From assembly GCA_009746045.1 (NCBI GenBank), contig RPFO01000637.1:42501-106500 (forward strand): a stretch of 64,000 nt of DNA, given 5' to 3'. A program made the translations under genes and the position numbers. Shown piece by piece: positions 2,859 through 61,980 of the stretch. This DNA comes from Mesostigma viride (Eukaryota > Streptophyta > Mesostigmatophyceae > Mesostigmatales > Mesostigmataceae). Each line of letters begins with the position of its first letter. Position 1 is the first letter of the stretch. The notes below the pieces were generated by a model. It saw only the letters and a list, made by a program, of their open reading frames with translations, did no database searches and was not told the DNA's origin.

Positions 2859-5800
2859 CTCCTGGATGGGCGCCGAGTGCTCCTTGGGGTTGACAAAGTG
2901 GGTCGCGCCAAAGAACTTGGCTGCACAGGTAAGTGTGGGAGCAGGGGGCCAGGGCAGAATCGTTAGCAGCCGGCAGGCTAGCTCACGCACATCGCTATCG
3001 CGGCTTTTGTCACAAGGCACGAACGAGTGCCTTATCAGCCTCATGGTGCGACGTAGCGTGGTAACCGCGTCAGAACCAACGTCGTCCACCGTGATGCCAC
3101 AACATAGCGGCGGGCTCAAGCTACCACCGTACACGCTCTCCAATTTCTTCCGCGGAAGAATTTCTTCCTTCTTTCTCTTTTTCTGGCCTGCGCTGGCTGG
3201 CTCATGGATGGAAGCGCTGCACAGGATCCCTCCGTGACGTGATGGGGGCTGCCCAACGCGGACAAACGGGATTGAAGAGCCCGAATGGGAAACTAACAAC
3301 AAAGGGGACGGAAGCCAATGGTTGTGCTCCATGCCCTTGCGGCCCGGGAGGATTGTGGTTGTGCTCCATGCCCTTGCTACCCGGGAGGATTGTGGTTGTG
3401 ATCCATGTCCATGCCCTTGCGGGAGAATGGAGGGCCCCGGCCTGGTCTCTGTATCACGCCATGGATGTGGCACAAGTCCGCAGGCGCACGCATGCATCTA
3501 CACAGGCGGTGATGAACCACACCATGCATGCCATCGAGGGCGACCGAAGAAGGGGAAGGGCCTAAACTCACAGCTGGGTGGCTTCCATGCCCCCCTTCCC
3601 CACCCCCCCCCCCCATGCCAGGCTGCACCCTGCCACGCACCCTTGTCCAACCTCCCCCCCCCCTATCTCAAATTTGCAACCCCCCCCCCGCCCCCATGCA
3701 AAACCCAGCTGCCACCCACCCATCTCAAACTTGTCCGGGTTGATGTCAACGGCGATGATCTGCTTGGCACCAGCAATTCGCGCGCCCTCGATGACCTGGG
3801 GCGGCCGGCAAGTGACGGCCATCAACAGGTTGCATGATTAAAGCCCGCAGTATACTGCCCGACAAGTCGCTGTACAGTAAGGGATGCCCGACAAGTGGCG
3901 CCCAACAATTGACTACAGCAGAGTGGCGCCCAACAAGCGGCGCCCAACAGATGATGCATGCCCATTGATGCCCGATAACGGGTGCTCCCCCCACAACACC
4001 CCCCAAGGCGCATGGTTGCATAAGAAGGGGGCGGTGCATGCACAAGGGAAGAAGCCCATGCCAGCAGTGAAGCCCTGCAAGCTTGCCAACTGGCACACCC
4101 TGCACAACTTGAACGTTGCAGGAAATGGCAACGTTGACGGGAGGGCGGACGGCCACAGTCTGCTGTTTGCGGTGGTGGCGGTGGGGCGATTTGCTGAATG
4201 CGAATACCCCGCCTGCCATTGGCCTGGGGCAGGATGGCCAAGTTGGCACCGATGCAACAAAACTCGAGGCCTTGAAAGGGGAAGTCGATGAACAAAGGGG
4301 AAGACGTCGTAGGGTTGGCAGCAACAAAGGAGCAGAGCTTGGATCGCACTGCCGGCGGGTGGCTGGGGCCAGGGGGAGCTCGTGGGTTGTGGGTGGCACA
4401 TACGCCGCCAGGCAACAGAGGGGCAGTACACAGGACACACCATACAGCAGTATATCTAGTGGAATTGTAGATAGCGGAATAAAATTGTTGCGGATAATGA
4501 AGAATGGAAGCGAGAGCGGCAACAGGACTCAAGTGCGAAACAGATAGAAACCTGACAAGTAAAGGTAGTAGGTAGGCATATATACTAGTCCCATACATAA
4601 GACAAACAGTAAAGGTAGTAGGTAGGCATACATACTATTACCATACATAAGACAAACAGTAAAGGTAGTAGGTAGGCATACATACTAGTGCCATACATTA
4701 GACAAACGTTATGTTCTGGTATTAAGAAATACAAACACGCACCACCCGGCCCACCGCGCCCAGCCTAAAGACGGCAACCGTGCTGCCTATCTGTTTAGGG
4801 TTTAGGGGTAAGGTACTAAGAAGTTATGTTCTGGTACTTAAGAATAGAAACACGCACCGCCAGGCCCACCGCGCCCAGCCCAAAGACGGCGACCGTGCTG
4901 CCCTTCTCAACTTTTGCGGTGTTGAAGACCGCGCCCAGGCCTGGGGGGTCGTGGGGCCCGTTGCAGGGGGTAGGAGCACGCTTGAAGGTGAGCGCATGGT
5001 GGGTTAAGTGAAGGGCGCGGGGGGCCAACAAGCAGGCGCGGGAGGATGGAGTGCAAGGAAGCCTGGGGGAAGAAACGAGAGCAACAAGAGGGGGAAAGAA
5101 AAGAGAGCAACAAGCGGGGGGCAGAAAAGAGAGCGACAAGGGGGGGGGGGGCAAGAGGAGGGAGGAAAGGTGAGGAAAAGGCGAGGAAAAGGCCAGGTGC
5201 ATGGTGGGCAAGTGGGCCGATACGAGGGGGGGCCGGGGCTGTGGTGTGCTGGTGGTTTAAGGGGATGGGACACCCCCGAATTTTTTGGCACGGAAAAATT
5301 CGCGGCACTGTCCGAGGTACCCTCCGTACCGTGAAAAGTGGGTGCACGGTGCGCGCACCCCTTGCGGAAGTGGCCATGGCGACTGCGTTTCGGCAAAACT
5401 ACCAGTATAGGGCGATCGAAATGCAAAACTATTACGCAAATCTTAAAGACGATTAGTTTATGATGTTGGCTTGTGGCGTAAAGTGGCTTGTTTACAAAAT
5501 CGTGGTAGTTTTTTTATGCCATCGGCGTGGGGGGAAATCCGAATTTTTGGGTCGCACAGAATGAAATGAAATTCATGATAACGCCAGTAAGTTCGTGATT
5601 TTGGAGGGAGTTCTGACCGTGAAGGAGGCATTAATATCAGTAGCATCGAATTCTAAACAAAACGCGTTCTTTTTGCTAAGTTTTGGCCATTTTCGGTGAG
5701 TAAACCATGCAGGCCTGCGCAGGGCGTGGCTGACCTTGCCATGGAAGAACGGCCGCTGTTGCGCGCCTGGGCGAGGGATTTACGAGGTCAAGGTATAGAT

Positions 5801-61980: not shown

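Follow-up and report, generated by a model that had tools for sequence, protein, structure and literature searches.

Exon ends and their splice sites recur as direct copies in the adjoining introns of four Mesostigma viride genes

Analysis of a 64,000-nucleotide stretch of Mesostigma viride nuclear DNA (the window) revealed that exon edges, often together with their splice sites, are copied into the adjoining introns of all four genes mapped in it, namely a dehydrogenase (ADH), PTB, FKBP62, and a copper ATPase. The copies are local and in direct orientation, nearly absent from exon bodies, and decay neutrally; about half or more of the single copies are separated from their source by a gap. 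For the most part, they look like the portion of a general load of local duplications that happens to touch exons. The class of repair that may underlie them is known; the long same-edge copies that include splice sites would be the new element.

Gene maps

The exon maps of PTB and FKBP62 were determined by spliced protein-to-window alignment, in which 557 of 557 and 607 of 607 residues were identical to public proteins, with GT-AG introns. The PTB reading frames match the M. viride protein Mv09240-RA.2 (P0001), and those of FKBP62 match Mv09241-RA.1 (P0241), the neighbour of the PTB protein (99% over the draft). The dehydrogenase is a class III ADH, with residues 2–257 of the draft aligned without gaps to chain 4dl9_A. 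The copper ATPase exons were mapped via plant and algal homologues, and the start of exon 2 was set at 60225 (earlier 60282). Splice positions are uncertain at four edges, namely two copper ATPase donors and the two ends of the final PTB intron. These four edges were kept in the 72-edge shuffle, inverted and other-intron, copy-alignment, and opposite-end tests, and were left out of the profile, 68-edge gapped/tandem, divergence, decoy, 105-edge, and random-point tests.

Exon edges match their own introns

To each junction we centred a 50-bp query, which was aligned to at most 1 kb of its own intron and compared with 60 dinucleotide shuffles. The initial annotation had reported copies at the exon edges of all four genes, and at 31 of 72 edges the real intron indeed outscored each of its 60 shuffles (30 of 68 once the uncertain edges are set aside). 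In 20 of these 31, the best alignment extends 5 bp or more to either side of the junction. Seventeen of the 18 edges named beforehand in the dehydrogenase, PTB, and FKBP62 genes are among those passing, and the remaining one, the PTB exon 8 donor, carries a junction-crossing 17-bp tandem duplication (20751..20785, plus strand). For the copper ATPase, where six or more donors and three acceptors had been proposed, seven donors (one of uncertain position) and four acceptors passed.

At a score of at least 30, the own intron contained a copy for 14 donors and 8 acceptors, out of 34 each, and the inverted own intron for 0 of 68 edges. Matches of edges to other introns at this score made up 0.17% of 2380 comparisons, and 1 of 45 exon segments lying 50 nt away from the edge matched its own intron. 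A stricter ungapped test, which required at least 8 exon bases in the copy and left out introns shorter than 200 nt and the last enolase acceptor, gave a copy at 30 of 105 edges (20 donors and 10 acceptors) in six of seven genes. None of 550 shuffled-intron controls gave a copy in this test.

The repeats are local and direct. A diagonal scan with big arrays masked counted 811 direct and 38 inverted 14-mer pair-bins within 600 bp; it replaced an unmasked blastn self-comparison, which misses offsets below 50 bp and returned 100 direct versus 123 inverted pairs at 300–600 bp. Among 59 exon-to-non-exon 10-mer matches, 46 are spaced 80–130 bp, and inverted matches number four in all.

Anatomy of the copies

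In many single copies, only 20–80 bp around the junction recur, often 80–130 bp away, and the sequence between is unrelated filler. At the ADH exon 5 donor (4708..4902, minus strand), the source at 4823–4902 (45 exon and 35 intron nt) is followed by filler at 4788–4822 and a copy at 4708–4787, in which 41 of 45 exon bases and 28 of 29 intron bases are identical. The filler contains CCCTAAACCCTAAA. Two telomere-like CCCTAAA units lie in this filler at 4794–4807 (minus strand), the sole exact pair within the window.

The other ADH copies are also on the minus strand. The source at the exon 4 donor (7850..8529) includes 29 exon nt and has five copies approximately 92, 208, 342, 551, and 648 bp into the intron, while the exon 2 donor (10435..10541) has its source at 10515–10541 and its copy at 10435–10461. 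The exon 3 acceptor (9356..9922) belongs to an array of ~90-bp units, the last of which holds the acceptor and 13 exon nt; an exon-only segment of exon 3 at 9232–9251 recurs in the intron at 9116–9135 with 20 of 20 bases identical (9116..9251). In PTB (plus strand), the exon 3 donor (14865..15218) has its source at 14865–14908 and copies approximately 113, 219, and 321 bp off, and the exon 9 donor (26290..26566) has its source at 26290–26333 and its copy at 26523–26566.

FKBP62 (plus strand) carries donor copies at exon 5 (39916..40036; source 39916–39958, copy approximately 39994–40036), exon 7 (41331..41461; source 41331–41360, copy 41432–41461), and exon 9 (44206..44368; source 44206–44234, copy 44340–44368). 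Its acceptor copies are at exon 6 (40383..40530), where exon bases 40493–40530 are copied at 40383–40420, at exon 8 (42730..42863; source 42829–42863, copy 42730–42764), and at exon 9 (43927..44054; source 44020–44054, copy approximately 43927–43961). The exon 8 donor (42925..43424) is a true tandem array of 113 bp × 4.4, in which the units include 36 exon nt and the donor, placing five donors in series 112–113 bp apart.

In the copper ATPase (minus strand), the exon 9 donor at 51511 (51323..51548) has its source at 51472–51548 and its copy at 51323–51399, within an array at 51275–51548. The acceptor at 51714 (51700..51853) has its source at 51700–51732 and its copy at 51821–51853, and the acceptor at 60225 (60191..60336) has its source at 60191–60239 and its copy at approximately 60288–60336. 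An exon-only segment of the exon 52332–52216 (52276–52304) is copied at 52396–52424 (52276..52424), and the exon 1 donor at 61775 (61515..61796) lies in a 35-bp array of 8 copies containing the exon end and the donor.

The copies had been described as tandem, a term that fits where several copies form an array, as at FKBP62 exon 8 and at exons 1 and 9 of the ATPase, and does not hold in general. The remainder of the supposed unit has no similarity above shuffles in 7 of 9 hand-picked donors. A uniform test of 68 edges found 18 with a copy, nine gapped and nine tandem-like; since its query extended no further than 20 bases into the intron, this test scored the ADH exon 5 copy as tandem-like. 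Under a coverage rule that drops multi-copy arrays, 31 isolated two-copy pairs were kept in the window from 1284 merged pairs, with a spacer of more than 20 bp in 16. Comparison of the two kinds revealed that 10 of the 16 gapped pairs touch exons versus 0 of the 15 contiguous pairs (Fisher p 0.0002), the other 6 gapped pairs lying away from exons. Among the ADH exon 4 copies, 2 or 3 of 15 pairs share the intronic rest above the shuffle 95th percentile (units 0 and 342 score 27 against a percentile of 14), and the PTB exon 3 copies share it by eye; these arrays look partly like old tandem arrays of ~100 bp.

The initial annotation had put the distance at 35–120 bp in most cases. Among the 105 edges of seven genes, 30 have an exon-containing copy, and the best copy is 58–134 bp off in 18 of them. 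Offsets of 90–130 bp occur in 13 of 30 edge copies versus 42 of 167 inside introns (p 0.048), and offsets below 70 bp in 2 of 30 versus 48 of 167 (p 0.011). Two sharper formulations were abandoned. The rule that copies lie ~100 bp off and never below 70 bp looks strong in the isolated pairs, but the matched control leaves the latter contrast of 2 versus 48 and a simulation with filler reproduces the scarcity. A hard limit of ~50 nt on the exon part was weakened by ten simulations, which give 11–27% saturated exon parts versus 1 of 30 observed.

Exon edges compared with intron interiors

When 50-mers were drawn at random from the interiors of these introns, 30% had a match in the intron they came from (1464 rightward and 1498 leftward). 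Following the refuting test set in the initial annotation, we compared edges with pseudo-junctions in the same intron and the same direction, leaving out introns shorter than 200 nt and the last enolase acceptor. Counting all repeats, 30 of 101 edges have a copy versus a mean of 22.4 (P 0.0135), a small excess that falls short of the clear edge-aimed habit proposed in the initial annotation. With low-complexity segments excluded, 28 of the 101 edges have a copy versus 9.5 expected, a value reached in 0 of 4000 draws; the control rate hinges on this filter, being 34.3% inside introns without it and 8.9% with it. In a separate filtered test, 12 of 33 donors and 6 of 35 acceptors had a copy, compared with 233 of 2018 and 191 of 2018 points inside introns. 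An edge-to-interior ratio of 0.73–1.37 is predicted by ten neutral simulations that let duplications across a junction survive as readily as any other. Edges are thus near ordinary when all repeats are counted and approximately threefold above intron points when only complex sequence is counted. We lean toward the ordinary reading, since the low-complexity filter removes intron arrays that coding sequence can hardly seed.

We profiled the share of sequence windows with a copy across the edges, leaving out introns shorter than 400 nt. On the exon side of donors, windows with a copy numbered 1 of 20 at a depth of 80 nt, 0 of 25 at 60 nt, 5 of 29 at 40 nt, and 15 of 29 at 10 nt; the junction itself also gave 15 of 29, and intron windows at depths of 60–300 nt gave 28–45%. 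The acceptor counts were 0 of 27 at an exon depth of 60 nt, 7 of 31 for windows on the junction, and 3 to 16 of 31 on the intron side. It is the exon body, and not the junction, that acts as a barrier to copies.

Decay of the copies and decoy splice sites

In the exon part of the 18 best copies, 47 of 508 sites differ from the exon (9.3% overall, range 0–23%), and the changes at the successive codon positions are 12 of 171, 14 of 171, and 21 of 177, indicating that the copies are without coding constraint. Decay had been said to increase away from the exon; among six multi-copy edges, this trend is clear in two, weak in one, reversed in two, and flat in one. The GT is retained in 25 of 31 donor copies by hand count in the gapped alignment (22 at the ungapped position), which fits an identity of ~90%.

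The proposal that real donors are surrounded by decoys was borne out, with 31 decoys, 15 of which equal or exceed the real donor in score. Of 2423 intronic GTs, no more than 1.6% attain the median score of real donors. Reading through to a decoy mostly meets a stop codon, the extension being open in 3 of 22 decoys with the GT in place. The data also support the view that the copies lengthen existing introns. The classical AGGT signature of intron gain is absent: when intron starts were compared with the next exon start and intron ends with the previous exon end, 2 of 72 comparisons reached p ≤ 0.02, about chance. A likeness between the end of ATPase exon 1 and the intron end before exon 2, seen at the protein level, was not borne out by the DNA comparison.

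Edge copies in other genes and contigs

Our survey spans seven genes on four contigs, the window itself being C1403:42501–106500, and is no genome-wide census. Of two copper-ATPase relatives, the one on C887 shows copies at 8 of 10 edges (five well-aligned introns) and the one on C1690 at 0 of 12 (six well-aligned introns). Inside their introns, 25–48% of 50-mers are duplicated in four C887 introns and 0% in one, versus 0–3% in C1690; C887 intron 3 has copies at both edges and a clean interior. The contrast between these two related genes implies that something local or historical sets the rate. The enolase gene on C777 (aligned as eleven exons) has 2 of 20 edges at p ≤ 0.02, with 17 of 308 interior 50-mers matching, and three more junction-spanning candidates at 119, 94, and 573 bp (p 0.033–0.049). 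In the stricter ungapped test, copies occur at 5 of 10 edges in C887, 0 of 12 in C1690, and 2 of 17 in enolase. Across ten stretches, local direct duplication involves 0 to 77% of 50-mers, and inverted duplication (complex 50-mers only) at most 1.9%. Of the systematic genome-wide habit that had been suspected, the occurrence on other contigs therefore stands and the uniformity does not: the trait does exist outside the window, but it is patchy and tracks the local duplication load. A second enolase locus, on C2233, was matched in two blocks covering nearly the whole protein; this compact copy could be a paralogue or foreign DNA.

Origin of the edge copies

We give about an even chance to the explanation that error-prone break repair duplicates short segments everywhere, often around filler, and that insertions into exons are purged while junction-crossing ones survive. 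Repair would often leave a short direct duplication of ~20–80 bp, commonly with 35–190 bp of filler between the copies, as the anatomy of the sequence indicates. A plausible pathway is a staggered break filled in on both sides and end-joined with filler, which would produce a direct duplication flanking foreign DNA. Such events may hit exons and introns equally. An insertion within an exon would disrupt the protein and be removed by selection. After a junction-crossing duplication, the exon-side copy would retain the complete exon end and splice site, and the filler and second copy would join the intron and drift; the exon would keep the upstream copy at a donor and the downstream copy at an acceptor, leaving the message unchanged if the exon-proximal site is used. 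With time read in this direction, introns would lengthen, and decoy sites would be a by-product that, judging from the gene models, the spliceosome passes over in silence for the exon-proximal site.

Several observations favor break repair, among them the local and direct nature of the copies, the gaps within pairs, the near absence of copies from exon bodies, and the decay without coding constraint. The edge load tracks the intron load, from 0 of 12 edges at 0–3% interior duplication to 8 of 10 at 25–48% in four of five introns. Simulations with filler, run with two parameter sets picked with the data already in view (80% filler, mean 80 bp), give a copy length/offset of 0.27–0.32 and 5–10% of offsets below 70 bp, versus 0.30 (hand median of 30 copies) and 2 of 30 observed; six simulations without filler fit less well (0.36–0.64). 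Other observations count against it: the threefold excess of complex edge copies over random points (28 versus 9.5) lies above the simulated ratios, the exon contact confined to gapped pairs was unforeseen by one uniform process, and half of the edge copies (9 of 18) are tandem-like in the uniform test. In addition, an exon part of at least 58 nt occurs in 1 of 30 observed copies versus 10 of 51 and 14 of 62 simulated ones, C887 intron 3 combines copied edges with a clean interior, and the ADH exon 4 and PTB exon 3 arrays are partly old-tandem-like.

The excess of complex edge copies and the clustering of gapped pairs on exons (10 of 16 versus 0 of 15) would be expected if a junction-aimed process copied segments ~100 bp into the intron, for instance through breaks or template switches that favor exon-intron borders and may be linked to transcription or splicing, and the enrichment of 90–130 bp offsets points the same way. 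We regard this process as doubtful: the excess is small once all intron repeats are counted (30 versus 22.4), 6 of 16 gapped pairs lie away from exons, and the quiet-intron gene on C1690 shows copies at 0 of 12 edges. A broader form, in which junctions are preferred targets of gapped duplication with a ~100-bp step, the spliceosome keeps the exon-proximal donor despite copies of equal strength, and introns stack silent end copies, also appears unlikely.

Plain head-to-tail duplication of ~100-bp units that later decayed, with the exon parts still recognisable because selection holds the exon copy constant, would account for the true arrays at FKBP62 exon 8 (113 bp × 4.4) and in the ATPase (35 bp × 8), the tandem-like half of the uniform test, and the intronic rest shared by ADH exon 4 units 0 and 342. 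At an exon-part divergence of 9.3%, however, the intronic rest should still align, and it fails to do so in 7 of 9 picked donors; the length/offset of 0.36–0.64 in the six no-filler simulations also exceeds the observed 0.30, and long units give 12 of 44 saturated exon parts in simulation versus 1 of 30 observed. As a general account, it is rather improbable.

Duplication of exon ends by assembly error is a very remote prospect. The public gene models may share the same assembly and so provide no independent check, but the 18 best copies diverge from the exon by up to 23% (9.3% overall), copies are present on three contigs, and the published assembly is described as combining PacBio, Illumina, and optical maps (PMC6947507). 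Selection keeping the copies as decoy or regulatory splice sites is more improbable still: 15 of 31 decoy donors match or exceed the real one, yet GT retention and the codon-position changes fit neutral decay, and decoy use mostly meets a stop (3 of 22 extensions open). Introner elements would place similar inserts in many introns; the edges, which were the sequences compared here, match other introns at a rate of 0.17%.

Relation to known systems

In Daphnia, intronic direct repeats are attributed to the repair of staggered double-strand breaks, and repeated breaks were proposed as a passive route of lengthening (PMC4202315). The Mesostigma introns resemble this case in their direct repeats and passive lengthening. 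The Daphnia exon-end repeats described there are 4–12 bp long and match the opposite end of new introns, with established introns less often containing internal repeats (100 of 617), whereas the Mesostigma copies are ~20–80 bp long, repeat the same edge, often include the splice site, and belong to introns of genes that are conserved. In rice, patch-mediated break repair (Vaughn and Bennetzen 2014, as summarised in PMC7407515) likewise generates local tandem and non-tandem duplications, from less than 200 bp of the break; it is described for insertions in general, and the summary there mentions neither exon edges nor splice sites.

In the intron-gain cases treated in PMC4974935, the duplicated segment bears splice signals as in Mesostigma, and in one potato gene the duplication likewise crosses an intron-exon boundary. 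Unlike in those cases, the Mesostigma duplications show neither a new intron nor the opposite-end signature. Direct repeats around splice sites have also been interpreted as break-repair scars (PMC11782384), in work that set 5′ borders against 3′ borders inside a 40-bp limit (mean 11.4 bp), whereas the Mesostigma repeats are same-edge copies inside the intron. Among the papers listed by a literature search that left most subscription papers out of reach, we saw none that describes long same-edge copies, splice sites included, as a common genome feature.

Because the origin of the exon-derived half is known for every copy, duplication events can be identified and dated, and intron lengthening becomes directly testable. 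Near-identical competing donors, such as those of FKBP62 exon 8, form a natural series in which the exon-proximal choice of the spliceosome can be examined. Gene finders and repeat maskers would face many false exon ends in such a genome.

Other features of the window

Both window ends are minisatellites, at 1–2348 (61 bp × 38.5) and 62267–64000 (23 bp × 75.7). PTB intron 8 (5.45 kb) consists mostly of a 71-bp minisatellite (21488–26135) with long open frames on both strands, which need not be genes. FKBP62 intron 3 contains a perfect (CCCTGA) × 38.7 hexamer array at 38682–38913, and intron 7 a 32-bp array of 26.8 copies at 41830–42686. For two long frames at 31587–32276 and 33426–34793 (minus), Pfam gave no match at E 0.001. 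A retroelement with a reverse transcriptase domain (RVT_1, 47526–48143, E 2.4e-15) lies in the interval that separates FKBP62 from the copper ATPase.
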